Source: Polytrichum commune (taxonomy: Eukaryota > Streptophyta > Polytrichopsida > Polytrichales > Polytrichaceae). Taken from it: DNA of 64,000 nucleotides. Under the pieces are notes generated by a model that was given only the letters and a program-made list of their open reading frames with translations, was not told the origin of the DNA and did not search any database. Position numbers and translations under genes: made by a program. The stretch is taken from contig OX485807.1 of NCBI GenBank assembly GCA_950295325.1, forward strand, positions 23,655,666 to 23,719,665, in the 5' to 3' direction. This document shows, one piece after another, positions 7,210 through 58,200 of this stretch; position 1 is the first letter of the stretch; each line of letters starts with the position of its first letter.

Positions 7210-7489
7210 TTGAAGTTCAAGAGTTCAAGAAGATAAGTGATCATATATGTGGAATCACCACCACCACATGGGTCTTGTGTAAGTGAACATTGTGATTGAA
7301 TGCATCCACTGCAATTAGCTAGGGGTGTGGTGGATGACATGGTTCTTTTGTTAGTGACCTAGGACATGTGAAATCCAATTCATGTAACTCTTAGTTGCGC
7401 AAGCCTTTAATCAAATTTTTGTACAACCCTATGGTTGCTTAAACCATTGCACTAGCAATGGCCATTGACAAGTTTGTGACATTAACTAA

Positions 7490-7912
7490 CCACGGGGAGG
7501 TCACTCCATTGTCAAGTTGAACACCACGTGCGAACAAAGTTTGCTACCCCTATATTACATGCCATAGATAATTTTAAAATTTATGATAATTTTTCTATAT
7601 ATACATAACCATTGATAGTATCTTTTGTATATTTTTTTGAAATTTTGAGTCATCTTCATTTTTGTAGTAAATTTTTAGTTCAATTATGTGTCATTCTAGT
7701 TAGAAACGATATGTTTTACTACAAAAACCAAATCATCAAATTTAGTTATAATTTTTTAACTATGTAATAGGTACCATGTATATCTACTCATGGAAAAAAA
7801 TTGATAAAAGTTTGACCCATTTTGGTGATGCTTTATGTAAATAATAGGATTTATTACATGTAAAGTGTTCACACGTGGTTGTTCAACTTTACAATGGAGT
7901 GACCTCCCCGTG
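7490..7912. mobile_element. hAT-type MITE (423 bp), CACGGGG family
   Basis: Near-perfect terminal inverted repeats of about 47 bp: both ends start CACGGGGAGGTCACTCCATT and run to CCACGTG. Flanks are an 8-bp direct repeat with one mismatch (TAACTAAC at 7482-7489, TAACTAAT at 7913-7920), as hAT elements leave. The interior is AT-rich with no coding frame. The same end sequence bounds the larger element at 9277-10639. Confidence 0.85.
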
Positions 7913-7920
7913 TAACTAAT

Positions 7921-8511
7921 AGAAGAGAGAGTTCTTTACTTACATTGTGCAGAGCATGGTAACTCAATACAACCTCCATTGTTCCCCGTGAAAAACACGT
8001 GAAAGTCTTAGTAAAAAAACATGTTGCATCTTCATTGTTTTGCTTTAGTATGCAACCATGCCAATTCAGAGAGCACAACCAACTACCAATCATTGGATAA
8101 CAATGCGTTCACAGTCATATGCACAACACTAAACAACAAGACGGTTGCATCACAATGTTTTTTGGCATGGAAAAACTATAGGACCTTTCTCAAACAAATT
8201 CATAGCAACCAAACTGCACAAAATATGCCATTGACATTGTAAATCAAAACACAATTTCAATGAGGGGGGGCTTTATATATATTGAATCCAAGTGTCTCAA
8301 TTGCACCACATCCCATAGAACCCCTCCATTGGAGACCTCAACACGTTCCTACATGAATTTTGCACTAATTGTAATTTACAAAAACATTGCATTGTGAAAT
8401 GAACTATAAGAATTTCAACCACAACCTTACTCTCATCTGAAATAGCTTCCTCTCTCATGGAGGTGGTACAAAAAAGTTGCCTAGTACATTGTCCCTTGCT
8501 TGTTCGTCACA
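7921..8511. other. Non-coding, nothing recognised
   Basis: No motif-bearing frame on either strand; this probably belongs to the 3' side of the decayed CACTA element whose coding remnant starts at 9217 and runs leftward, but I see no element terminus. Confidence 0.35.
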
Positions 8512-11059: not shown

Positions 11060-11300
11060 CTACAAGTCTTCCGTGCACAACCCCAACGCTTCCTCAATAA
11101 TGTATCCTTTTGCCATGCATCCTCCAACAACAACCGGTTTTGAACATATTCTTTCAGCATGCTAAGATTACGCTTTATTGAATACATCCACTTGCACAAC
11201 ACCATCCCACAAATAGCTAATTCATCTACAAGATTTACAACAAGGTGAGACATTATGTTCCCAAAGGAGGGTGGAAAACAAACATGAGGTTTTTGTTGTG
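11060..11300 (-). pseudogene. CACTA transposase remnant, DUF4218-like part
   Basis: Read leftward from about 11290: FPPSFGNIMSHLVVNLVDEL, AICGMVLCKWMYSIKRNL, then LKEYVQNR. This matches the conserved core of DUF4218 in plant CACTA transposases (FPP-F-IM-HL-VHL-EL-ICG-V--RWMYP-ER-L--LK-YVRN-). A one-base frameshift follows, after which the other frame continues GCMAKGYIIEEALGLC, the expected next block, before a TAG at 11060-11062. The known domain order DUF4218 then DUF4216 is preserved on the minus strand (the latter at 8952-8512). Frameshift, stops and two later insertions (9277-10639, 12495-14289) show that the element is long dead. Confidence 0.75.
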
Positions 11301-11939
11301 TACTGCTTCAACCATTGCATCTCGCTCGTGTACACAACTTTTAGTTGTGATTTTGAATTTGGAATCTTCCATGTACACATCATGGGTCATGTGTACCCAT
11401 GTAGCATGTTTTTGCGGTGTAGAGCAAGGCGTTCCGTTGGTCTAAATTCACCTTCGACAAATCCCTCATCAGCTCATCCACGCACACATTGGAGATTCTA
11501 TGGGTTTTTGTAGATTGTGGGGATCATAAGAAGACATCCTAGCAAAGACACAATGACATAAACATAGAGCAGAATGCAGTCGGCCTCTCCAAAGTGCCGC
11601 AACAAATACTTCAAAATCACACAAAGTACCTGAAGATGTTGTGGACTTAGAGGTGAGCTAAGTAATGTTCTTGAATCCTTAGATGGTTCAAAATAAACAG
11701 ATGCATAAAGATTTCGAAGAGCAAGTTTGATACATATAGGAATCAAAAGGCCCACCAATTACTTATTTGAGGACCAATTTAGCAAGGGGCGGTGTATGAG
11801 CTAAGATTAAAGTGGCAAGCCACCATCAAGTCGTTGTGCCACCGATATCTTTGGTATAGTGTCCAAGAGTTTAATAAACAAGATAAAAAATTAGTGAAAT
11901 CCATTATTGACAATGTCACCAATAAGATGTTCATCTACG
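11301..11939. other. Probable decayed CACTA sequence
   Basis: Upstream of the DUF4218-like block on the minus strand, where the catalytic transposase_21 region would be expected. I could not recognise that domain in any frame; the longer minus frame at 11498-11758 has no familiar motif. Confidence 0.3.
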
Positions 11940-12250
11940 AACCTAGAGGGATGATGCGGTGAAAGATTACATGCAAAGTCGCTTCTATATTTTGCGCTAT
12001 AAACTACGGAAGTATTGGGTGATGTATGGGTGTGATGAGCATAAGCCCCATCCAAGCATGAGCTCAGAAGATTGGTATGAATGTTGTCGGTTATGGTTTA
12101 ATGAAATAGGATAAGAGCTATCGAAGCACACGAGCCTTGTATGGGCATGCATAAGGAAGTCTTCCCATCCTAGGAAAGGGACAACATGCCATAAAGTTCA
12201 ACCCTTGGTTTCTTGAAGATTTTGTTCTTATCTTAAAACGTGCAATGGTC
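11940..12250 (+). pseudogene. Transposase_24-like (Ptta/En/Spm) fragment
   Basis: One plus-strand frame reads YMQSRFYILRYKLRKYW, then HPSMSSEDWYECCRLWFNE, a stop, ELSKHTS and RKSSHPRKGTTCHK. The layout W-x-x-x-x-x-x-W followed by S-K and a basic T-x-H stretch resembles the plant transposase_24 family (PF03004) found in CACTA elements. At least one in-frame stop interrupts it. The resemblance is by eye and short. It runs opposite to the DUF4218/DUF4216 remnant, so if real it may be the second gene of the same CACTA element or a separate relic. Confidence 0.35.
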
Positions 12251-12494
12251 ATTATTTCTTAATTATTGTAATGCGAAGCATGCCACTTACATTCTAATAT
12301 GTGCATTGCAAAAGGCTACTATAGGTCTTCATGTTGCTCAAGATGGCAAGCCCAGTGAAAGTGAAGGGTGCCTTCATGCCGCCGCTCTCGTGCAAACGAT
12401 AGCAACATGGGCTTCATGTCTTCTGGCGGGCACACCACTCCCAAAAAAGTTAAGGTGCCCCATGCAGATTCATAGAATGGACCTAGAAATGTGG

Positions 12495-16775: not shown

Positions 16776-16968
16776 GCACATGGTTGGGGAGTGCTATCTT
16801 ATGAGCGGTGAGCGATGAGCGGTAACTTATGAGCACTGAGGAAAATGAAAATTTTGGTAATAGGGCCACCAATATCCTATAACCGTGGAATTGTGGCCTT
16901 AAAAATGATGATTTTAGGGTTTAGTAATAAGAGGGTTGAGAAGGATAAACAACATGAAGTCCAAATAT

Positions 16969-17440
16969 TTATTCATCACTAGTAGCACTAGACATGAAAC
17001 TACCTTTTGCCTCGTCATCTATATATATTTGAGCACCTTTGCATTGCGAATTGATTTTGGAACTATAGCAAGATTCTTCATTTGGATCCGAATATTCGAT
17101 ATTCAACATTGCAATTGCAACATTCTCGGCATATGATGGGAGACGCGGGCTACGGCTTGGACTTCGTAGGAATTGTCTATGTGCCCAAAACGGGAGACAT
17201 GTCATCTTTCCAATCGTATTCATGAAATCAAATTGATGAAACATGTAAATAATGTAAACAAATAAAAATGAACCAATGAATTGAATGAAACGAATGAATT
17301 GAATAAAAATTTATTGTATCAAAACTTACTCACACTAAAATTCAAGCATCTCCTCATCCGAGAGGTCATCATCTTCTTTTGTGAGATCTTGTATATTCTC
17401 CTTAGATGACCCCTCTTTCAAAACCTTGTTCAAAATCCAT
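16969..17440 (-). pseudogene. Possible captured gene fragment in MULE I
   Basis: Two minus-strand frames (about 17440-17335 and 17244-16969) end in composition unlike their surroundings: the first closes with ENIQDLTKEDDDLSDEE, an acidic tail, and the second with IEYSDPNEESCYSSK. They lie between the left terminal repeat and the start of the recognisable transposase and have no counterpart in element II. They may be tail exons of a captured host gene. I do not recognise a family, and chance open frames remain possible. Confidence 0.3.
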
Positions 17441-17454
17441 TCATGGATTCTGTT

Positions 17455-19472
17455 TGACAATGTCAAACGTTTGAAGGACTGGACGACTATGGCTTGCCAT
17501 GTGTACGACAGTCGATACTGTAAAGTGTTGACTATTACGTGTTGTGACATGCAATCTGAAGATGGTGCAACACAAATTCTCTTTTGGGAAAATTTAAATG
17601 TTGTCATGGCAAAAAATGGTGCACCAAACGTAAACTTCAAAGGGTTTAGGGCTGATAGTGCTCAAGCTAATTGGAATGCGGTGAGGGCGATTTACGGGGA
17701 TGGTGATCCAAGTCTACCTATGGTTGCACGTGAGCGTACATGTCTTTTCCATTGGTCTGCAAGCTTGGATAAGGTGACCCAAAAGTATATCAAACCATCC
17801 TTGCAGTTTCAACACAAACAAATATGCAAAGATTACAAAGACGCGAAAACAATGGACGACGCTGAGACTAAGTACCATGTGATTCGTTCTTGGTGGTTGT
17901 TATCTGGAGCTGCCTCGGAAGAAGGCATCATTGGCCTTTCAGAGTGGTTGGGTTTTTGGCACTTTCGTTACAGACAATGGGGTGGTCATATGCTACTTGT
18001 AAGTACATATCAAACTTCATTATTCACTGTCATTCAATATCTTGCCACTGATATATAATATATCTTATGTTTTTCTTATCTTTGTATTTGTGTGTTGTTC
18101 ACAGGATATGACAATAGAAGAGCGTGCGGAAATGCCAATATGCAACCTTGCAGAGACTGTATACAACAAATAGCTCCAACAGTCCGGCAACAAGATGACT
18201 TGTTTATATGAAGCTATAGTGGACGACATGATCCGTGCCTTCATGCAAATTGCAAATTACCGGACATGGTTGAAAGGGGGGTCTGATGGTAAAGGTCCTG
18301 ATTCGGCATCCTTGAAACTCAAAGCGGTTGTCAGGTGTGAAGATCCAAAAATATTGGCTGATGCCATGAAGTCTTATCCAGGGGCAGAAGACGTCAACAC
18401 TAGAGATTGTGCATTGGAAGGGTCAGAGCTCTTTGGTTCCACCAAACGCAAATTCAACCTACCACCGGGTGCTGATTGTGACTCTCATCAACCCGACAAA
18501 GTAAATTATTCCATTCCTCGTCCCAACACCCGAACAACTTGTCAACGCATAGAAGAATCGTTGAGTTCTGCAATTCATGGTGTGGCTCATACTACATCCG
18601 TGTTAGAGACAGATTGTCTTGCTTCTAAGTGGCACATTGCAAGATTACCACCCAACTCAGCCAAACGATGGTGGGCACTGCATGCCATTACAAGGACTAT
18701 GTGCAATGCCAAAGTCGGGACTGGGAAACATGACACACCTGCTCCAACATACAAAGGGCTCAGGAAGGAATTTCGATCTTCCAACAATGTGGAGTATGAA
18801 TTTTGGTTTTGCCCTGACGACATCAAACGTTGTGTGAGTGGTAGTAAGAAGAAATATGTGTTGGACTGGCCTATAGTACACAACACGTGGCCGGTAAAGA
18901 TAGGTACCAATTTATCGAGAGAGGAGGTTATGGCACTTGAAGATGCTGAATTTCAACTACAGTAGAGGGAGGCATTGTCCCCTCGTCGTAGGCTTTCAAC
19001 AATCGCAACTCTCCCCATCCCTCGCTCGCATTTTTCTATGCCCTCAAACCCGGACGCCCACCCTACATTCAGGTTTGGGAAGACAGTGCGTCGTAATCCT
19101 ACAGCACCGCTAGCGGATCACAAAAACAAATGGGAGAGCGCTGGACTCATGGAGGGTTACTATGTGGTTGGGGTCATTGCCATTCTATATCTGGGCTTTG
19201 GAGTGATAATCAACATTATCTCCAAGCATGATATCACATATCATGTCACAATTGGCGACATCCCGCATTGCACATGCCCGGATTTTACGAAAATGTCCTC
19301 TCATGCATTGGGAAAGAAAGGAAAATGGGTGTATTGTAAACATCTTTATTATGTGTTTAGATTTTTGTACAAGGTGGATTACGAGAGTGACAAGTTCATT
19401 CATGCACCTACATATACTTATAACGAGGTCATGCGACTACTTGAACTTGCTGGTATTGTAGAGTGTGAGTAG
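17455..19472 (+). pseudogene. MULE transposase with SWIM finger, two stops
   Basis: Two exons in one continuous frame: 17455-17998, a GT-AG intron (17999-18104), then 18105-19472. The first exon holds a MULE-type DDE region: CCDMQSEDG (first Asp), FKGFRADSAQANWNAV (second Asp), ERTCLFHW (the C-x2-H typical of MULE transposases), then SEWLGFWHFRYRQWGGHM. The C-terminus has a SWIM zinc finger, CTCPDF ... WVYCKHLYYV (C-x-C ... C-x-H), about 50 residues from the end. Two in-frame TAG codons, at 18171-18173 (tryptophan expected) and 18963-18965, kill it; the inverted copy at 20794-22530 has both. The N-terminal DNA-binding part is missing or replaced. The catalytic Glu is not certain. Confidence 0.8.
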
Positions 19473-20035
19473 TATTGCAAATGGTCTATTAAGTACCATA
19501 TATTTGAATGTCAAAATATGACATGTTTTGGTTTGGATTTTTATAATAAAAGTCAACAATGGGCTGGAAGTATTTCAAATGATCCACGGTAATACGCTTC
19601 CTTCTTGCTTCAATTGAACTCTTTACAATTGAAAATCTTCAATTCATGTAGTACTATATTTAGTTCATGTACCCTAAACCCGTGCACCGTTACTATTTTT
19701 GAATTCATTATTCATATGTTACCACTCACTGCTCATGTCGTATTGCTCACCGCTCATGTCTTATTGCTCACCGCTCACTGGTCATTGCTCATCGCTTATA
19801 AGATAGCTTCCCTCGCACATGGTTGTATATAAAGGAGAAACATCTAGAGCGCATGGCGTTGAAGTGCAAACCTAAGCAACAACCCCGGCAATAAGGCCGC
19901 CCAACCAAGATAAGATGAGGTTGTTCATTCAATCCACACAGAGGGAAGTTATCTTATGAGCGATGAGCAGTGAGCGGTGAGCGGTAACACATGAGCAATG
20001 AATCCAAATTTAGTAAAGACACACGGGTTTAGGGT

Positions 20036-20335
20036 ACACAACCAGAATTTTGACAAATTAATTACATATTTTCAATTATAAATTGCCAGTATTTTAAATG
20101 AAGCACACGTGAAAGGGCCCTATTGCCATGGATCATTTAAAACACTTTCAATTCATTGCTGATTTTTATTATAATAATCCAAACCAATACATGTAGTTAC
20201 AACCAACACTTGCACAACTACTCACATTCCACAACACCAGCAAGTTCAAGTAGGTGCATAACCTCATTATACGTATATGTAGGTGCTATAATTGTGAACC
20301 ACTCAAATCGCTCATGGGCTGAATTAAGGCCCACA
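20036..20335 (-). pseudogene. Duplicated transposase 3' end in MULE II
   Basis: Read leftward it encodes APTYTYNEVMHLLELAGVV followed by ECE and a stop, nearly the same as the C-terminal residues of the main transposase copies, plus the 3' untranslated stretch common to element I. It is directly next to the 3' terminal repeat. Element II therefore has two 3' ends of the transposase gene, this one and that at 20690-20850, suggesting nested insertion or unequal recombination. Confidence 0.75.
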
Positions 20336-20339
20336 ATCT

Positions 20340-20690
20340 ACAAAAACAAGGAAGTTAGATATTAGAAATAGTCAATATGTAGGTAGCTACTAGGTTTTGA
20401 GACATCTGCCTGTAGATGCAAATTGTGTAAGAGACTGATATTAGGTCTGGATCAACCCGGGTTCGAATCCGGTTGGTTACATTGACTGGCGCTATCCCAA
20501 ATTGAGCTAGTGATAAAGTAGGAATAATCTATAGGCGGATACCAAGAAGAGGTTACTACGCGGATGTGCGTAGAATCTTCTCGATTATTTTTTATTTTTA
20601 GAAACTTGTTATTATTTATCCGTGTGAATCAATCAAACCGCTCACGGTTGGGTCGTAGTCTAAATAAAAATGAAGTTACTGAATCATTTG
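20340..20690 (+). other. Insert in MULE II with pol III B-box-like motif
   Basis: A 350-bp segment separates the two transposase 3' ends and has no match in element I. It contains GGTTCGAATCC (20460-20470), an exact RNA polymerase III B box, on the plus strand. I find no convincing A box upstream and no clear target duplication, so a SINE or tRNA relic is possible but not shown. Confidence 0.35.
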
Positions 20691-20793
20691 AAATACTTTC
20701 AGCCCATTGGTAATTTTTATTATAATAATCCAAATAAAAACATGTCATTTATTGACATTTAAATATATGTTGCTTAATAGAACACTTGCAATA

Positions 20794-22530
20794 CTACTTA
20801 CATTCTACAATACCAGCAAGTTCAAGTAGTCGCATGACCTCATTATAAGTATATGTAGGTGCATGAATGAACTTATCACTCTCGTAATCCACCTTGTACA
20901 AAAATCTAAACACATAATAAAGATGTTTACAATACACCCATTTTCCTTTCTTTCCCAATGCATGAGAGGACATTTTCGTAAAATCCGGGCATGTGCAATG
21001 CGGGATGTCGCCGGTTATGACATGGTAGGTGATATCCTGCTTGGAAACAATGTTGATTATCACTCCAAAGCCCGGATATAGAATGGCAATGACCCCAACC
21101 ACATAGTAACCCTCCATGAGTCCAGCGCTCTCCCATTTGTTTTTGTGATCCGCTAGCGGTGCTGTAGGATTACGACGCACTGTCTTCCCAAACCTGAATG
21201 TAGGGTGGGCGTCCGGGTTTGAGGGCATAGAAAAATGCGAGCGAGGGATGGGGAGAGTTGCGATTGTTGAAAGCCTACGACGAGGGGACAATGCCTCCCT
21301 CTACTGTAGTTGAAATTCAGCATCTTCAAGTGCCATAACCTCCTCTCTCGATAAATTGGTACCTATCTTCACCGGCCACGTGTTGTGTACTATATAGGCC
21401 AGTCCAACACATATTTCTTCTTACTGCCACTTTCACAACGTTTGATGTCGTCAGGGCAAAACCAAAATTCATACTCCACATTGTTGGAAGATCGAAATTC
21501 CTTCCTGAGCCCTTTGTATGTTGGAGCAGGTGTGTCATGTTTCCCAGTCCCGACTTTGGCATTGCACATAGTCCTTGTAATGGCATGCAGTGCCCAACAT
21601 CGTTTGGCTGAGTTGGGTGGTAATCTTGCAATGTGCCACTTAGAAGCAAGACAATCTGTCTCTAACACGGATGTAGTATGAGCCACACCATGAATTGCAG
21701 AACTCAACGATTCTTCTATGCGTTGACAAGTTGCTCGGGTGTTGGGACGAGGAATGAAATAGTTCACTTTGTCAGGTCGATGAGAGTTACAATCAACACC
21801 CGGTGATAGGTTGAGTTTACGTTTGGTGGAACCAAAAAACTCTGACCCTTCCAATGTACAATCTCTAGTGTTGACGTCTTCTGCCCCTGGATAAGACTTC
21901 ATGGCATCAGCCAATATTTTTGGATCTTCACACCTGACAACCGCTTTGAGTTTCAAGGATGCCGAATCAGGACCTTCACCATCAGACCCCCCCTTTCAAC
22001 CATGTCCGGTAATTTGCAATTTGCATGAAGGCACGGATCATGTCGTCCACTGTAGCTTCATATAAACAAGTCATCTTGTTGCCGGACTGTTGGAGCTATT
22101 TGTTGTATACAGTCTCTGCAAGGTTGCATGTTGGCATTTCCGCACGTTCTTTTATTGTCATATCCTATAGACAATATACAAATATGAGGATAAGAAAAAT
22201 ATAAGATATATATAACAATAGAAGAAAAATGAATGACATTAAATAATGAATTTTGATATGTACTTACAAATAACATATGACCACCCCATTGTCTGTAATA
22301 AAAGTGCCAAAAATCCAACCACTCTGAAAGGCCAAGGCAGATCCGGATGACAACCACCAAGAACGAATCACATGATATTTAGTCTCGGTGTCGTCCATTA
22401 TTTTCGCGTCTTTGTAATCCTTGCATATTTGCTTGTGTTGAAACTACAAGAATGGTTTGATATATTTTTGGGTCACTTTATCCAAGCTCACAGACCAATG
22501 AAAAGGACATGTACGCTCACGTGCAACCAT
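20794..22530 (-). pseudogene. MULE transposase, inverted second copy
   Basis: Closely related to 17455-19472 but on the other strand, starting at about 22530 (the C-x2-H region) and ending at 20794. It retains the SWIM finger CTCPDF...YCKH. It shares both TAG codons of element I (at 22096-22098 and 21301-21303). Additional lesions are its own: CAG to TAG at 22444-22446, a 15-bp-scale deletion near 22340, a one-G insertion in the G run near 21987, and a TA insertion near 21395 that shifts the frame after DWPI. An intron with GT-AG ends lies at about 22157-22270. The first DDE Asp region found in element I is not present here. Confidence 0.8.
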
Positions 22531-23007
22531 GGAGAAATACGCCACACAATACGAAAAAGAAGAACAATCTTCTGAGGCGGAGATGGAGGTAGGTTGTACG
22601 AACGAAATGGTAAGAGAATAACTTTAAAATCAAAATAAATTTGGAGGTATGTAATGTATACTATATTATGCACGCCGAGAATACGATTCCAACGGTATAT
22701 AGCATGAACAAAATGATTTTGTTATGCATGTTTAGAGCCAAAAAAAAATTAGAGCATATTAGATTCTTCTAAAATCTTCAAAAAAAATTAAGATTTTATG
22801 CAGGAAATCTAACCATATTAATTTCAGTAGACTTTGGTGATTTATGTAAAATTGATATCATCTCTAAAAATTCTCAAAAAAATTGGAGTAAATGGCAAGG
22901 CTATAATCTATGCACTTGATGTTTTGCAGAAATAAATTAGAATATTTGAAAATGTTATAGCAAACCCAGAAAGTGACTCAAATCAATGTGCATTTCTCTT
23001 CCAAATG

Positions 23008-23768
23008 GGTAGCCGTTAACGGCCACCATTTCTATGATGCCAACTTTTGTGTTCTAGTTTAGGGCGGCCGTCAACGGCCACCCTTTGTATGATGCTAACT
23101 TCTCTGTTCTAGTTTAGGGTAGCCGTTAATGGCCACCCCTTCTTGGGTTTCAGTCTTCATTTAACAACTTAATTTCTTTAAAATAAAATCACATATATAC
23201 ATATATTTTTTATGTTTGTTCCATCTAAAAGTGTGGCCGTTAACGGCCAGCCTTGGTTGCATCTCAAATTTATTGGTATATGTATTTCTTTTTCCATGTA
23301 TACATTTATTTCCGTCATTTTTTGTCCTCCAACAAGGGTCGCCATTAATGACCACCCTTATTGAAAAATCATATTCTTTTCTATATATGTTTCTTTCTTC
23401 ATGTATATACTCATTTCCTTCATTTTTTTTTCTTCCAACAAGGGTGGCCGTTAACGGCCATCCTTATTGAAATTTCATATTCTTTTCTATATGGGTTTCT
23501 TTCTTCATGTATACACTGATTTCCTTCATTTTTTTTCCTCCAACAAGGGTGGCCGCCCTTATTGAAATTTTAGATTCTTTTCTATATGTGTTTCTTTCTT
23601 CATATATACATTCATTTTCTTACTTTTTTTTTCCTTCAACAAGCATGGCCGTTAACGGCCACCCTTATTGAAATTTTATATTATTTTCTATATGTGTTTC
23701 TTTCTTCATATACACATTCATTTTCTTAATGTTTTGTCCTCCAACAAGGGTGGTCGTTAACGGCCACT
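23008..23768. repeat. Array of about nine palindromes in MULE II
   Basis: Copies of, or variants on, GGTGGCCGTTAACGGCCACC occur at 23008, 23063, 23118, 23234, 23337, 23443, 23548 (deleted), 23646 and 23749. The first three are spaced exactly 55 bp; the later ones about 105 bp, roughly double. The spacers are themselves repeated (T-rich, with TTCTTTCTTCATGTATAC in the later units). The array lies exactly between the two divergent genes of element II, where their promoters should be. Each core contains CCGTTAACGG, two back-to-back AACGG motifs of the kind bound by plant MYB factors. Cruciform-forming or transposase-binding roles are alternatives. Confidence 0.9.
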
Positions 23769-23937
23769 CTTATTGAATTTTTAATTTTTTTGTATAAGTG
23801 GTTTTCCTTTATGTATACTCTCACTTTTATAAATGTTTTTCCATATTATTTTAGTTTGCATATGTGATTTCTTTCATATGCATATATTTTTTAAATTTAT
23901 TTTTGTCTTTAATATGGGTGATATTTTTTGTGCTTTA

Positions 23938-25558
23938 GATATGAAAGTTGTACCTCTTTCTGAAGATCAATTGGAGTTGCAATTGCATGTATTTTTTAAG
24001 AAAGAAACTGTCAACACATCTTCCCATCTTGAACGGTTGAGGTATCAACCAAGGGCAAAATCAAAATTCAAAATTCCACTATGTCGAATGGTTGCATTGT
24101 CTGTTGTTAGGCCTTTTGTAAAAAATAACGTTATGAACCTGACTGCACATTTTGTTGCTTGTGGTTATATGGAGGGCAATGGGATTTTTTACGTGGCTTT
24201 GGAAAACAATAAGGGGAAAACAATAGATGTTACCGATAGTATCATTAAATAATGAAGTGAGAATTGGATACGAACAAATGATGCCTTTGAAAAAATATTG
24301 TAAACTAATGAGGACCTCAAAGTTGTTTCTGGCAAAATGTTCATGGTTTGGGACGGAAATTACCGTTTGCAAACATGGTTGCACATTATGAATCGAGATC
24401 ATACACATGATCATGCTTGATATTATGTTGTTGAAAGTATTATTTTGGACATTAAGGGAGATATTGCAACCATGTTGGCAGCTTTACATGAAATGAATTG
24501 GTAATTCCTTCATTCTTCTCTTTTTATTCGTTCGGTTCATTTGGTTTTGTTTTTAATTTTTTAATTTATTGTATTTTTTTTTTCTTGGCTTATCATTGGT
24601 TGTTTTATTTTGTCAGGGAGAACTAAAAATTCCATTTTTGTACGAATCTTGTTCATAAGTTTTTCCGCATTCAAAGCGTTGATGGGCAACCACTTTCATA
24701 TTTTGAAAAAGTTGTCTCCAAAGAAGATCTTATTGCCGCTAATCCCAGACAAACATCCAAACATAGGACTTGGTTCACTTTGACTGTTGAGGCTCTTAAT
24801 GGATTTTTATACTAGGTTATTTTTTTCTAAAGTATTAGTTTTGCACGCATTTTTTTTTCTTGTATATATATATATATATATATATTTTTCATTTTGATTT
24901 CTATAACTATATGTTTTATTGCATCTTTTTTTTTTTATGTGTTATTTATCATACTCTTATATGTTTTTCCCTTAGTGTAGCAAGAGTTAGGAGATGCTGT
25001 TGCTAATGCTCAAAGGAAATTTTATGAGAAATAGCCTAATCCTGCACATTGGACTTCAAGTGCAGTGGATGAATTTGTTTTCAAAGCTGTTGAGAGGGTG
25101 AGATTGACTTCCCATTCGAAACTAAAGGAACAACTTCTCATTGCAGATCCTAAACATTCTCCTATGTTGTTAGAGCAGGTGAAGTCTCATTATGAAACTC
25201 ACGATGAAAATCCTGAGATGACTCAAGAAAAACTTTGGATGTTAGCAACTTCGGCAATGGATACATCTATGAAGATTAAGTGGCTTGAGAAATGGAACAG
25301 TTCATCTACTCTTCGTGAGGCTCTCAAGTTTCCGAAACCAAAATTCAATGATATTGAGTTTCCTAAATAGCTTCATAAAGCTACTTGGTGGGCTCAGGTG
25401 ATAATTTTTTGTCTATGTTTTTTATTTTTTTAATATTTTTTCAATCATTCAATTTTTCTAATTTTTATTTTGAATTTGGCAGTTGGCTATTGAGACCGAG
25501 AAGCTCTTTGATGCTACTATAGCTGATATGCATGTGTCCATCAACTATCTTCTAGATG
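23938..25558 (+). pseudogene. Multi-exon accessory gene in MULE II, broken
   Basis: Four exons with canonical junctions can be followed: about 23938-24500, 24617-24815, 24981-25397 and 25483-25558. Readable blocks include LRYQPRAKSKFKIPLCRM, HFVACGYMEGNGIFYVAL, KMFMVWDGNYRLQTWL, RQTSKHRTWFTLTVEAL and KLWMLATSAMDTSMKIKW. At least seven nonsense codons interrupt it. Most are TAG/TAA/TGA where CAG, CAA or TGG would fit, so C-to-T or G-to-A changes explain them. DGNxRLxxW weakly recalls the DGxHRxxA core of ParB/sulfiredoxin-like domains; I do not otherwise recognise the protein. It may be a captured host gene with introns kept, or a genuine second MULE gene comparable in position to mudrB. Orientation is divergent from the transposase. 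Confidence 0.65.
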
Positions 25559-28500
25559 GTATGGATCCTTTGCCCATTATTTTTTATTTTTTATATTTGA
25601 TTTCCAAGAACTTCAACAATTTAAACCTACTACCCGATTTATATCTACAATCCACCTTTGTTGTTCTTTATATTTTGGACTTCGTAAATGTCACCCTCAT
25701 GATGGTGTTATGATATATTCAAATTTTACATTGATGTGTATTATAGTGAGACATTCTAACGTGCTACACTTGTTTTCAACATGAGTTTGCTTACACATTG
25801 TCTTCAATTACATAATTATTATCTCAACAGTTGAATGTATATTAGTTCATTTTCAGTACAAAATTGTTATAGCAACATTCTCATTTGTTGTTCATTTGGA
25901 CTATAGACCCTTACATGTAATTCTACAGTCATAGGCCCCCAACGGATTTACAAACCATAACCGGGAAAAAATTGAAGGGTCACAGGTTCACACTCGCATG
26001 CTCACATACTAGCAACCCCGAGTCGTGTACATATTGGTCTTTTTCATTGCTCACTACTTGCAATCTAGCATTCATATTGTTTGTCCTCCCCAATCTTCTT
26101 ATTATTGAACCCTAAAAATTTGTTTCTTTAGGCCACAGTTATAGGATACTAGGGGTCCTATTACCAAATATTTTGTTTTCTTCACCGCTCACAAATTACC
26201 GCTCATCGCTCACCGCTCACTGCTCACCGCTCATAAGATAGCACTCCCCGATCCACACAATTACATTGATGTCCTCATCTTGTTTCATATATTGAACTTA
26301 GAATGTTGGCTTCATTGTTTAAGGCATGCCATAGTTTCTCAGGACACGTGAAGGGCATGTTAGAGTTTCCTAGTATCTCTTTGCATCTTTGTGAGCCCAG
26401 AAATGTGCCCACAGTTGTTCTTAACCCTTGTCTACTATTAAGTTTGGGTTTTGAATTTTATTATTCAATCAAAAAGTATAAAAACAGTGCAGGTTTCAAG
26501 TTTGGGCTTTGATTGAGTTAGTTTGAGTGGTGTGTTTAGTTTTGGGTTGTGGGTGAGAATGGCGTTAGGGAAAATGTTGTTAGAATGATAGCATTGAGCT
26601 TGGCTTAATGGGTTGGGTTGTAGAGTTTAGGCTAGGGGGTTTGGTGTGCGAATTGGGTTGAATTGATGTTTGAGTTAGGCAGGGGAATTGCATGTCAAGG
26701 CTGGGTTAGTGACCTTTTGGGTGTGAGGGGTGTCCGAGTTAGACCCCTGGCCCCTGTGCCCTAATGATTTTCGGTCAGGGCTCGAAGGGCTAAGGCCAGG
26801 CAGCCGACCCCAGCTGGCTCTCTCTCTCTCTCAGGAGCCTCTGCAGACTAAGGGGGCGGTACGAAACCATGGAAGCGAGGGAACAGGGAGGCTGCCGAAG
26901 AGCAGTTGAGCTGGCGAGGCTAACCGCAACTGGAAGGGGATTCTCACCCAGCTGATGCGAAGGAGATGAGGGCAGCATCTTCCTGCTCGATGCCCAAGCT
27001 CACCACTGTGGGTGCGAGGGAGCTGAGGGCCACACTGAAGGGTAAATCGTACACGGAACTCAACTGTGAGGGAAGGGGATTGGTGGTAACCGAGGTCACT
27101 TCGAAGTTAGCATGTTGGGTTGGGAATTCAGGAACCTACAAATCCCTGACAATTCTGGAGGAAGGGAGTAAGAATCCTAGCTAACTAATTCAAGGTGAAT
27201 TCCTGCATTTGCAATCTGAAGTCTCATGTCAAGAGTGGCAGAATTCAACCTGGCATGAATCTAGATTTTGACCCAGCATCTCAAATGCGGAGCTGAACTC
27301 TGGAATGGTAATCTCTGCTGCCCTCGCATTGTTCGGAATCAGCCACAACAGGGGAGGAGTGAATTTAAAATGGCGGCAGAGGGACCTGAGAAGGTGAAGG
27401 TCGGGTCCTAGAGACCAGCAGTGCCGAGATGGATGGACTTCGGCAGAGTGCAGGCTGCCGAATTGAAGGGCAGTGACAGGTTCGGTTATGACCAGCACGC
27501 TGGAGGGCCTGAGGCCGGGCCGGCAGGGCACACTGGAGATGAACAGGAGCTAGGTTAAGGGCGTAGCTAGGACACCTTAGGGGTTAGGTAGGAAGGGCAT
27601 GCTTGGGATGAGTGGGATTGAGGTAGTAAGTGTGGAGATCCAGTTTAAATAGTTGGACATTAGGTTGTTGGATTAGTGAGTGATTGTCATTAGGGTAACA
27701 AGTGTTTTCTAAACACTTATGTGGACCTGGTGGAATAAAGTGGTGTGTGCTTTGATTTACATCGTTGATTGTGGTACTTTTGGGCCACCCCCTTTCGAGG
27801 GAGCCTAAAAGTATCACACAAGCCCTTCGGTGAAGGTGGCCTGCATTTGCAGGCGCCCAAGCCGAACCCGGATGATAGGTGTATAACGTGAGTAGTTAGA
27901 TTTTTAAGGGAGATTAAATATGCGTCGTAGTACCTTGTGAGCCCAAAAGGGTGCCCACATTTAGTCTTAGACCCTTGAAACGTTAGTTGATGCACTTTGA
28001 AGTAGCATGTTACTTCACAAAAATATAAAAAGAGTGAAATGTTAGTCTTAGAAGTACCATGTTGTAAGAGGCTAGGATGTGAGTTGTTATTGTGTTTTTA
28101 CCTTCGGAAGGATTTGAGTGAATGAGGATAGGTAAGGAGAACTTGGATTGAGTAGTTAGTGAGTAGGCTAGTACAAATGGATGGAGACAACCAAAGTGAC
28201 TCAAGAGGCAAGTGCATTCGAATTGGGATGAATGGAGGATCACATGGAGCGCACAAGTGGACCACCTCATCATGGCCACTTAATGGGGAAGGCCCAAGGA
28301 AGAATGCAAGGTGGAGGATAAGCAAATTCTCAAAGCACCAATCAAATCACGAGTTAAGCATCGTGGTTTGAATTAAGTGGTGAGCGACGATTTGGGAAAG
28401 TAAGGGGAGAAAGTTATGGCGGCGGAAAGCGAAGGAGGCTAAGTTTGGGTTGAAGCATCCCAAGTTTGGTAAAGTGTGGTAGGTAGAAAGCCAAGGCTAG

Positions 28501-55289: not shown

Positions 55290-58200
55290 TTAAGGGTAAG
55301 AGGTATGATGATTTTGTACCAGTTCACGGAACTTGAGAATGTAGAACATCTCCAAATATCTCCGCGACTCTTGCCTGTGCAGTTTTGATACATACTTCCA
55401 GAATCCGTAAACACGAGCCAACGTCAGGCAGCGTTCAGCATAGATCTTCCAAGTATAGCTGCAAATGAAATAACCACCACAATTAGCAAAAATGTGTCAG
55501 TATTATCATCTGGGTGGTGGTCATGTACATAGAGTCAGATACATTTTGGAAGTAATAGTGTTCAATATTGGTTAGGGATTGCTTTTCAAGCCCAGGCCCC
55601 CTTCACACTAGACAAGTTTAGCGCTTAAAGGACAATTAGCCTCTTCCGCGAAACTTAAATTCATACCCAGCTTACGATGCACTTAGTCATATTAACAAGC
55701 TCTTGGTCAAAATCCTGATCTACCTCATAGAGATCACTTGGGACCCACAAAACGAGAACTCAAGCCTTTGACTATACCAAGCCAATGGGGTTCCAAACTT
55801 GTCACAAACTCTCATTTGTTGAGTATGATCCCCCCCCTGAGCATGACCAGACTCTTTACACTTGCTGGAACCTTTGAGAGCTTCCCAAGAGAAATCGGTG
55901 AAATTCTCAATAGTTTTGAGCTTCGGATGAAATCTTGTCGATAAATTCAAGTATCCAACTCCCGATCAAACATTGCAATCAATGTCAAGATTCCAAAGAA
56001 ACTTCAATTTGCATGAGTACTGACCTCGAGTAGATGCGCTGCAGACCCGCCTCGGAAACACTTGACCAAACTTCTGGCTCGGTTTTGAATTGCTCAAAAA
56101 AGGCCGCAATTACGTTGCCAGCTTCATCTGGGTGGTAAGGGTCGATGTGATACCCAGAGACCCCGTCTTCGATAATCTCTGCAGGCCCGCCGTGGGAGGT
56201 CGCGAACGTGGGAAGCCCACACGTCATTGCTTCAACAACTGTCAACCCGAATCCCTCATAGAGAGCGGGCTGCACAAAAGCGCCATGGGTATCGGCGATG
56301 CACCGATAAAGCTCCCCATTGCGCACGCGGTTGGTTTGCGAGCGGATCCACCGGAAGTTGTTGTGGAGCTTGTACTCATCGATGAGCGCGTGCATCTTCT
56401 CAATCTCCTTCACTTCCTCCCTGTCCTTGGACCGCTTAGGGTCGATCTCCCCACCAACAATCACCAAGTGTACAAGATCCCGAAGCTTCTCGTTCTTGGC
56501 GTACATCTCGACCAAACCCGTCAGATTTTTCACCCTGTCGAGTCGTGCCATCGTGAAGAGGATAGGCTTCGTGTTGTCAATCAAGCCACTGCGAGAAAAT
56601 TACAAATACATTTCAAATTTATTATAGCATCAAAATTGATTTTGAATGGCATGAATCTGCAATCGCAGTGAATCAACACCCTTGAAGCCTTCACTTGCAT
56701 ACTCGACCTCGTGCTGATGATCACTCAAGGCTTTTATCAACATCATCACAAACACCGAAAACTTGTATATCATTGACACTGGTTTCACATTGATTCAATC
56801 ACATCAGAATTGTAAAACACCTAAAAGGTTGATTAATAATGAGTAAAATCAATGGTGAATGAAACATTAGCTCAATGTTGAGGTTTGCAGTGGAAGGATA
56901 TGTATTTATCAGCACCGACAATAAGGGCTGTTTGCTTGATGAAGGAAATAACAATTTTCTTGGTGATCACTTACACACGCTCATCTGTCTGAATTTTTTA
57001 ACACTGATTTCACTTATACAACATTTAATTGATGCCTACCAAAACGTAGAGTTCTAATCCTAATCTGTTGCTTCTGTATTTTATAGTTGCAAAATATAAG
57101 ATGTATAACCAATGTTGAAAGAATCATGAGCAATGTTGAGGTTAGATTTTGCAAGAATGCTATTTAACTATTAAGGGTAATCAACACTGAGCACTCAACA
57201 TTAAACTCTGATCACATGATGAAGTAAATATATAACAATATTCTTGATGAATATAGTGAACGTACACATGCTCATCTGTCTGTTCATGGCCATACAACAG
57301 ATCGTTGATGGCTCCATGCATGCTTGTTAAGCGGCGCTCCTTGTCGGTAAATGGGTAGTAGATGGTCATATCGGCTCCTGGTGACACAATGTTGAATTTT
57401 GGGTCGAACACATCGATACCATTCACAACCCGGTAGAGGCCGGGCAATGTGAACGCCTGGTGGCTCTCATACTGTCCCACGGTCTCAGAACTGCAAATAT
57501 CGAAAATTTAATTTCACCAAACCTTTCTTTAGCTTCAGGAATTACAAAACACATGAATTCTTATAACCTCCACCAGAAACTGAAACAAACCCACCAGAAG
57601 GATGTGTAATAAAAGACCCAAAGCATAGTTCTTGAAGGTTATCTTAGAATAACCATGACTGCTGAGATATTCCATCATGTGTAAAAACAGTTAATATAAA
57701 AGGTGAGAATATGAATTTGCACCTGCCAGCAATTTCTTGATAGGTACTGGTGATAATGAAGTCTGCGTGGTTCATGGCGATGAGGTCGGCAGTAAACTGG
57801 CACGAAAAGTGGTACTTCTCTTCAAAGCTCTTCCAGTAAATGTCTGAGTCCGGGTACTTGGTCTTCTCCAGTGCATGAGCAATAGTACACTGGAGCAGAT
57901 AATTTAAGGTCAGGATAGGTTGATTGATTAACCTTAAAACGAAAATAAAATGCCTGTTTGTAGCCTTCACAGGGATTCCATCAAAAAATTCAGGAATTAC
58001 AATGAGGTTGATCTCTACATACCTGGGTTACACCAAGATGGTGAGACAGTAAGGTTGCCACCAAGTTTCCATCACTGTAATTGCCAATGACCAGGTCAGG
58101 TTGTCCTGAAAGCTCTGCAACAATCTCAGAAGCTGCATCCTGTATATACAAAACATTCAACATTTTTCAATACGATCCCCTTGACAGCCCCAAATGATTA

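Follow-up and report, generated by a model that had tools for sequence, protein, structure and literature searches.

We analysed a 64,000-bp stretch of the Polytrichum commune genome (contig OX485807.1, positions 23,655,666 to 23,719,665; hereafter the window), in which an element derived from a DNA transposon carries the remnants of a transposase gene and of a second gene, gene 2, on opposite sides of an array of palindromes. Genome searches covering 408 Mb in 64 contigs showed that the long members of this family are two-gene DNA transposons with 10-bp target duplications. The observation made in the earlier note on this DNA was largely right: an element of ~6.3 kb with inverted termini is present at 19941-26249, and a palindrome array lies between its two genes, beyond chance as judged by shuffles. 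Its reading as an intact two-gene Mutator-like element (MULE) was not, since this copy is a decayed deletion derivative and MULE membership was left unconfirmed by Pfam, NCBIfam and profile comparison. The features of the locus are as follows.

19931..19940, no strand: left target-site duplication AATCCACACA, identical to the right copy at 9 of 10 bases
19941..26249, no strand: whole element, a 6.3-kb non-autonomous deletion derivative of subfamily A, delimited by inverted termini at both ends and by related copies
19941..19985, plus strand: left terminal inverted repeat (GAGGGAAG.TATCTTATGAGCG...), from the sequence of the inverted termini
20797..22532, minus strand: C-terminal remnant of the transposase, containing a SWIM-like motif (CxC..CxH); counterpart of the 455-residue open reading frame (ORF) that intact copies have, here interrupted by frame breaks
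22532..22541, no strand: deletion junction 1, where long copies have a further ~3.4 kb that includes the larger transposase ORF
23007..23143, no strand: palindrome array of 55-bp units, AGCCGTTAACGGCC type, from Tandem Repeats Finder (TRF), pattern matches and a relaxed palindrome search
23229..23818, no strand: palindrome array of ~106-bp units, GGTGGCCGTTAACGGCCACC type, from the same three methods
23941..24500, plus strand: gene 2 exon 1 remnant, ParB-like domain with internal stops, from spliced alignment and the fold of relatives
24617..24815, plus strand: gene 2 exon 2 remnant, from spliced alignment
24981..25397, plus strand: gene 2 exon 3 remnant, from spliced alignment, with more than 70 listed genome matches at 63% identity or more
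25483..25588, plus strand: gene 2 exon 4, first part only, from spliced alignment
25582..25588, no strand: deletion junction 2, with 7-bp microhomology, where ~2.3 kb is lost, comprising the remainder of exon 4 and the exons of the methyltransferase-like part
26205..26249, minus strand: right terminal inverted repeat, from the sequence of the inverted termini
26250..26259, no strand: right target-site duplication GATCCACACA, partner of the left copy

The termini share a 34-bp inverted core with 97% identity and imperfect outer bases, and thus are not the exact terminal repeats that had been described. The target duplication, given before as 9 bp, is in fact 10 bp; it is exact in eight of the nine two-ended copies, and 9 of 10 bases match in the window element (AATCCACACA/GATCCACACA). 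Relatives of each end were examined as the best 40 scored of 449 and 769 candidates. One of the eight exact copies is a second derivative of the same superfamily in this window (16786-19814), inverted, 126 bp from the first element and flanked by the exact 10-bp duplication GCACATGGTT. This 3-kb derivative joins a part of the transposase directly to the final exons of gene 2, which here is of the B type.

The window copy is a degraded, non-autonomous short derivative without large parts of both genes, and could therefore move only with enzymes from elsewhere. Complete relatives with both ends found are 12,395 bp long in subfamily A, and 11,674 and 12,344 bp long in subfamily B. The window copy is collinear with four long copies (L001-L008) except for two gaps. 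Junction 1 is identical in all five short copies read, and each of the 40 scored genome matches (the best 40 of 253 candidates) to a 141-nt query across it spans it, with at least 139 nt aligned, while junction 2 is continuous in the four other short copies and interrupted in the three long copies compared. These common junctions indicate that the short form most likely arose once and was then amplified. The copies were chosen rather than drawn at random: L001-L008 for paired transposase and gene 2, L010-L013 by paired ends (four of the six pairs seen), and L016-L017 by a left end and transposase without a listed gene 2.

Unbroken copies have two frames on the minus strand: a 455-residue ORF that contains the CxC..CxH motif, and another of 742-794 residues. 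The larger frame is unbroken in C6_16.36 (A) and C3_25.36 (B), and broken in C5_30.5 and C1_2.15. Among the best 150 relatives of the ORF at 20797-21300, out of 2,325 candidates, many have the whole 455-residue frame. A comparison of A with B gave a ratio of nonsynonymous to synonymous substitution rates (dN/dS) of 0.11-0.16 for this ORF and 0.27 for the other. Of the SWIM-finger transposase proposed for the element, a minus-strand ORF with a SWIM-like motif is present; the central part of the transposase is lost at 22532/22541, and the Pfam SWIM match falls below cut-off. In an intact relative, in which CxC..CxH is present, PF04434 gave E 0.076 and 13 bits against a cut-off of 19.6. The MULE domain (PF10551) had no Pfam match in the three transposase proteins, and the NCBIfam scan of the three members gave no match of any kind. 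With hhalign, the probability against PF10551 proteins of the same genome was 0.1% (thin profiles, of 3 and 5 sequences), and a PDB profile search returned a single chance-level match only. Target duplications of MULEs are 8-11 bp long; this family has inverted termini and a 10-bp duplication. Terminal repeats, duplication length and the SWIM-like motif suggest a Mutator affiliation, and the profile tests for MULE membership failed. The labels 'GCM-like' and 'DDE-like' for the transposase are tentative ones, given by eye. A '1820-aa frame' was discarded as an artefact of a 5000-N gap.

Gene 2 had been taken for a four-exon gene of unknown family. A plus-strand gene remnant is indeed present; of a longer gene (eight exons in A) it keeps only the first three exons and a piece of the fourth, with eight in-frame stops. 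By spliced alignment to a hand-assembled reference, the whole gene in A has 8 exons and ~1,020 residues; the models of B and C consist of nine pieces with some uncertain boundaries. Stop-free copies were found in C (C6_33.0, one frame break in the model) and in B (C3_25.36, none). Between two C-type copies, dN/dS is 0.087 for exon 1 and 0.079 for exon 3. These low ratios, together with the stops and near-neutral ratios of A given below, show that selection acts on gene 2 in C, whereas in the A copies read the gene is in decay. The B methyltransferase exon was uninformative (dS 0.03), and a B comparison over exons 3-4 was out of frame and dropped. Relatives of gene 2, of which ~150 were listed out of 944-1,166 candidates per exon, form several families down to ~35% identity. 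At least 20 C copies are 97-100% identical over a 116-residue gene 2 exon, mostly with open frames, which suggests a recent amplification.

Whether relatives keep both genes and the array was checked in other copies, and the arrangement is constant in A, B and C rather than the product of a one-off capture by the window copy. All nine A copies read have the array and gene 2. In long members of the three subfamilies, the transposase is read leftward, and gene 2 rightward from the other side of the palindrome array. Six other end pairs are spaced at ~6 kb; the four fetched, a choice made with the gene 2 exon matches already known, each carry gene 2 together with the array, and the other two have a listed gene 2 exon. 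Both of the copies picked for having no close listed gene 2 proved to carry one that has diverged, together with an array of another kind. One D-type copy has the two genes on the same strand: in L023 (5766-7106), a transposase C-terminal ORF follows a truncated gene 2 on one strand, and the copy looks rearranged.

Comparisons among the three subfamilies showed that gene 2 and the array do not follow the transposase. Subfamilies A and B have near-identical ends and transposases 88% identical (B-C 48%, A-C 46%), whereas for gene 2 the closest pair is A and C, at 52% (B-C 35%, A-B 34%). When alignment columns were resampled, A was placed nearer C in 1000 of 1000 resamples of gene 2 and in 0 of 1000 of the transposase. 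The arrays agree with gene 2: those of A and C share GCCGTTAACGGC, and B has GTGCGTTAACGCAC. Since near-identical transposases and ends of A and B are combined with diverged gene 2 copies and different arrays, the simplest reading is that gene 2 and the array were exchanged jointly, as one putative recognition module.

The palindromes were compared with shuffled sequence. The window array contains seven matches to a 20-mer (up to 3 mismatches), against none in 100 shuffles, and eight relaxed palindromes, one of them a collapsed unit, against 0.125 matches per shuffled region; TRF reported arrays of 55-bp and 106-bp units. Across 12 elements of A, B and C, 3-30 dyad units lie between the two genes (0.125 in a shuffled region), with one match in C1_46.5 being a simple repeat. 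The core GTTAAC is common to the arrays of all three subfamilies and is flanked by different arms: GGTGGCC-GTTAAC-GGCCACC in A, CCCTGTGC-GTTAAC-GCACAGGG in B and GGGGTGCC-GTTAAC-GGCACCCC in C. At all 92 GTTAAC sites (54 distinct) of the 12 arrays, taken with no symmetry filter, 81% of the ten outer pairs are matched, compared with at most 66% when letters were shuffled over all families; for 16 GTTAAC sites outside the arrays in the same loci, some belonging to an array within an intron, the figure is 50%. An earlier figure of 78% against at most 65% came from units picked for symmetry and was replaced by this unfiltered test.

Genome-wide, 213, 490 and 259 core sites of the A, B and C types were found, compared with 2, 0 and 0 for reversed controls. 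Of the 50 listed among the 213 A-type sites, 47 are within 5 kb of a listed gene 2 exon (22 of 24 clusters), a distance within which 0.5% of contigs C1 and C2 lies. The corresponding count for the C type is 29 of 50 listed among 259 (3 of 5 clusters), and the two clusters left over lie 0.7 kb and 5.6 kb from a methyltransferase exon. An array that is a mere promoter, or a satellite expanded by slippage, would have symmetry and a match to gene 2 only as by-products of linkage. Tandem arrays do expand easily, the arrays of families D and G are non-palindromic, and the arms do not covary within families. The arms nevertheless differ between subfamilies with the dyad kept, and the array follows gene 2 and not the transposase, and we regard this explanation as quite unlikely.

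Further palindromes were observed in and around these loci. Units are spaced at ~105 bp in A, 64 bp in B and 234 bp in C, and at 32 or 64 bp in a second B type; the A and B spacings (~105, 64 and 32 bp) come close to integral numbers of B-DNA turns, as if the sites lay on one side of the DNA, and the 234 bp of C is less so. The second B array is of the TTTGGGTCG-NN-CGACCCAAA type, with 32- or 64-bp spacings and without GTTAAC, and occurs besides the GTTAAC type in C3_25.36 (reverse complement of L018+L016, ~7300-7680) and C1_2.15 (L017, ~7900-8230). The C locus C6_33.0 has two TTTGGGTCG-NN-CGACCCAAA palindromes 3' of gene 2, and six perfect palindromes at ~234-bp spacing in a long gene 2 intron (L014, positions 11207-12395), which resemble the VANC motifs reported in introns. 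Family F has a 94-bp array with a near-palindrome, and C2_67.0 a 138-bp array with two GGGTGCCGGCACCC palindromes.

The order around GNHRxxAW raised the suspicion that the N-terminal part of gene 2 is ParB-like. An AlphaFold2 model built from 12 sequences reached a predicted local distance difference test (pLDDT) score of 81 and a predicted template modelling (pTM) score of 0.78; an earlier fold from 6 sequences (pLDDT 47) was not used. With this model, ranks 1-29 of the Foldseek PDB list were Noc, ParB, PadC, KorB and sulfiredoxin, and the viral library returned mostly ParB/Spo0J-like proteins. The model thus supports a ParB/sulfiredoxin-like fold at the start of gene 2, and homology to ParB-like proteins is likely. 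A Mycobacterium phage 'DNA methylase' stood at rank 13 of the viral fold list; its gene was absent from the feature tables of the record parts checked, which leaves a phage ParB-methylase fusion as a lead. A tblastn search of the gene 2 methyltransferase part against phages gave no match.

Profile hidden Markov model searches, which had been proposed for the second protein, gave it a family after all. Its C-terminal part matches phrog_3008 in all three members (best E 1.9e-10), and Pfam N6_N4_Mtase (PF01555) in two of the three (best E 8.5e-5, 23 bits, below the gathering score of 26.7). DpnA was matched at E 0.017, and a CcrM model at E 0.0055 in one of three. The similarity is limited to a stretch around motif I. 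Matches to RVP_2 (E 0.021) and DUFs were dropped as chance. Motif IV followed by motif I is the beta-class order, and the C-terminal part is, by these sequence matches, beta-class DNA-methyltransferase-like. At the motif IV position, the residues are VDLIIADYPDG in A, VDLVFLQFPDG in B, VDLVIAEYPDG in C and DLIIADIPEN in F, and ADIPEG stands there in seven of eight further loci, the seven that gave a frame. Since D-x-P-E/D is conserved at this position between families, a change of chemistry or of binding is favoured over decay.

These residues bear on the possibility that gene 2 encodes a working N6-adenine or N4-cytosine methyltransferase acting on the GTTAAC palindromes and marking the element for the transposase or for activation. 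The beta-class similarity and the GTTAAC core common to the A, B and C arrays fit such an enzyme, and algal ParB-methylases are proposed, in the part of PMC12477816 available, to modify their own transposon. In addition, (D/N)PP(S/T) occurs ~10 residues after the motif IV position in A, F and six of the seven further loci, and could be a displaced motif IV. The DPPY position, however, reads D-Y-P-D, Q-F-P-D, E-Y-P-D or D-I-P-E, (D/N/S)PP(Y/F/W) is found in none of the five gene 2 proteins scanned, (D/N)PP(S/T) is absent in B and C, and the second B palindrome array is without GTTAAC. We consider a working methyltransferase unlikely.

Transposons with a ParB-methylase protein class are already published (PMC12477816, available in part). 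In that account, Sola1-1_Ec32 of the brown alga Ectocarpus encodes a 1,104-residue protein with ParB-like and N4-cytosine/N6-adenine methyltransferase parts, on the strand opposite to the transposase. Gene 2 of the moss resembles these proteins in having ParB-like and methyltransferase-like parts, compared by description only: the ParB-like domain is recognized by fold only, the methyltransferase domain by phrog_3008 and by PF01555 below its gathering score, and the opposite-strand arrangement is present in A, B and C. The algal account concerns another host group, and its available text mentions neither a palindrome array, nor a subfamily-matched motif, nor an altered motif IV (PMC12477816). 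Among the titles, abstract openings and passages covered by a literature search, which took in few subscription papers and the first 8-12 entries of the longer lists, none connects the ParB-methylase class with palindrome arrays or with a plant element. As far as was searched, the plant host, the protein-matched palindromes, the cassette exchange and the altered catalytic motif are new.

A second gene is not in itself new: one, often antisense, has already been reported in MULEs, and table rows of the same source, available in part, give duplications of 9-10 bp (PMC6446971). The family is like MuDR and other MULEs in its inverted termini, 10-bp duplication and extra antisense ORF, and perhaps in its SWIM-like motif, and unlike them in that its transposase has no MULE profile match. 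Presumably, the gene 2 protein is also unlike mudrB. A role resembling that of mudrB was weighed, in which gene 2 would aid transposition: its protein, bound to the array, would bring the ends into synapsis or offer the element to the transposase. Such a role would suit the divergent arrangement in which A, B and C inherit gene 2 and the transposase together, and an integration role of maize mudrB is named in the available part of PMC6446971. Against it, the array is ~2.4-8 kb from the ends and not subterminal, and the 3-kb derivative in the window has exact duplications, although none of the A, B and C palindrome patterns was found in it. A helper of this kind is, in our view, very unlikely.

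Taken jointly, the evidence leads us to lean slightly towards reading the gene 2 protein and its palindromes as an exchangeable, self-serving recognition and protection module. The gene 2 protein would bind the palindromes as a symmetric complex, like ParB on parS, beside both promoters, and would spread or be held at the array. The methyltransferase-like part might then mark the element or keep host silencing off, so that both genes could stay expressed. The protein and the array, differing together, would swap between transposases as one module, and each subfamily would serve itself. A fuller version, with a eukaryotic ParB-parS-like system of ParB clamps on the arrays, a rebuilt methyltransferase active site and a tradeable module shielding each subfamily, seems improbable in so complete a form.

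Several results weigh against the module reading. The exchange is deduced from three subfamilies with one protein each. Within-family shuffles also give 81% of outer pairs matched, with 456 of 1000 at or above the observed value; joint differences of the two arms are seen only from one subfamily to another, and so in very few events. Families D and G carry non-palindromic tandem arrays upstream of gene 2 (L045 ~1561-2804; L046 reverse strand ~409-702; L023 ~1899-2905), and E has only a two-copy 25-bp repeat within the 3.3 kb read, so palindromes are not universal. The best Foldseek E was 5.6e-3, with none below 1e-3, at a probability of 1.00 and a template modelling score of ~0.4, and neither Pfam at E 10 nor PDB profiles detected ParB in the gene 2 sequence. 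All four long A copies read carry 1-4 gene 2 stops (C5_30.5 was read to exon 6 only), and dN/dS among A copies is ~0.5 or more, near neutral and from few differences. With the canonical catalytic motif absent, methylation activity may also have been lost.

The nearest counterparts of such a module are VANC proteins and bacterial partition proteins. To our knowledge, self-recognition of a transposon and its protection against host silencing have been worked out in detail only for VANC. VANC carries DUF1985, which was absent from the gene 2 Pfam lists when sought there. Bacterial ParB-parS, Noc and KorB use palindromic DNA sites, and the modelled N-terminal fold of gene 2 appears to be shared with them; unlike these, gene 2 is in a eukaryotic transposon and has a methyltransferase-like end. 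In the VANDAL elements of Arabidopsis, motif arrays are read by the element's own protein, and protein and motif co-evolve (PMC5735166, available in part). Our family, with its suggested Mutator affiliation, is like them in having a second protein that goes with a motif, and differs in that the VANC21 motif is described there as nine bases long, non-palindromic and in one orientation.

In the moss, a bacterial-type protein, not VANC by its domain content, adjoins arrays with subfamily-specific palindromes. Binding can readily be tested with each pair of protein and array, and the apparent exchange of such pairs between almost identical transposases amounts to a swap experiment done by nature. 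Proof of binding would mean that transposon proteins of two unrelated kinds have converged on one solution, and that DNA is loaded in the ParB manner inside a plant nucleus.

Apart from the transposon copies, an ORF at 55985-56584 of the window was assigned by Pfam to glycosyl transferase group 1, with a likeness to sucrose synthase noted by eye.

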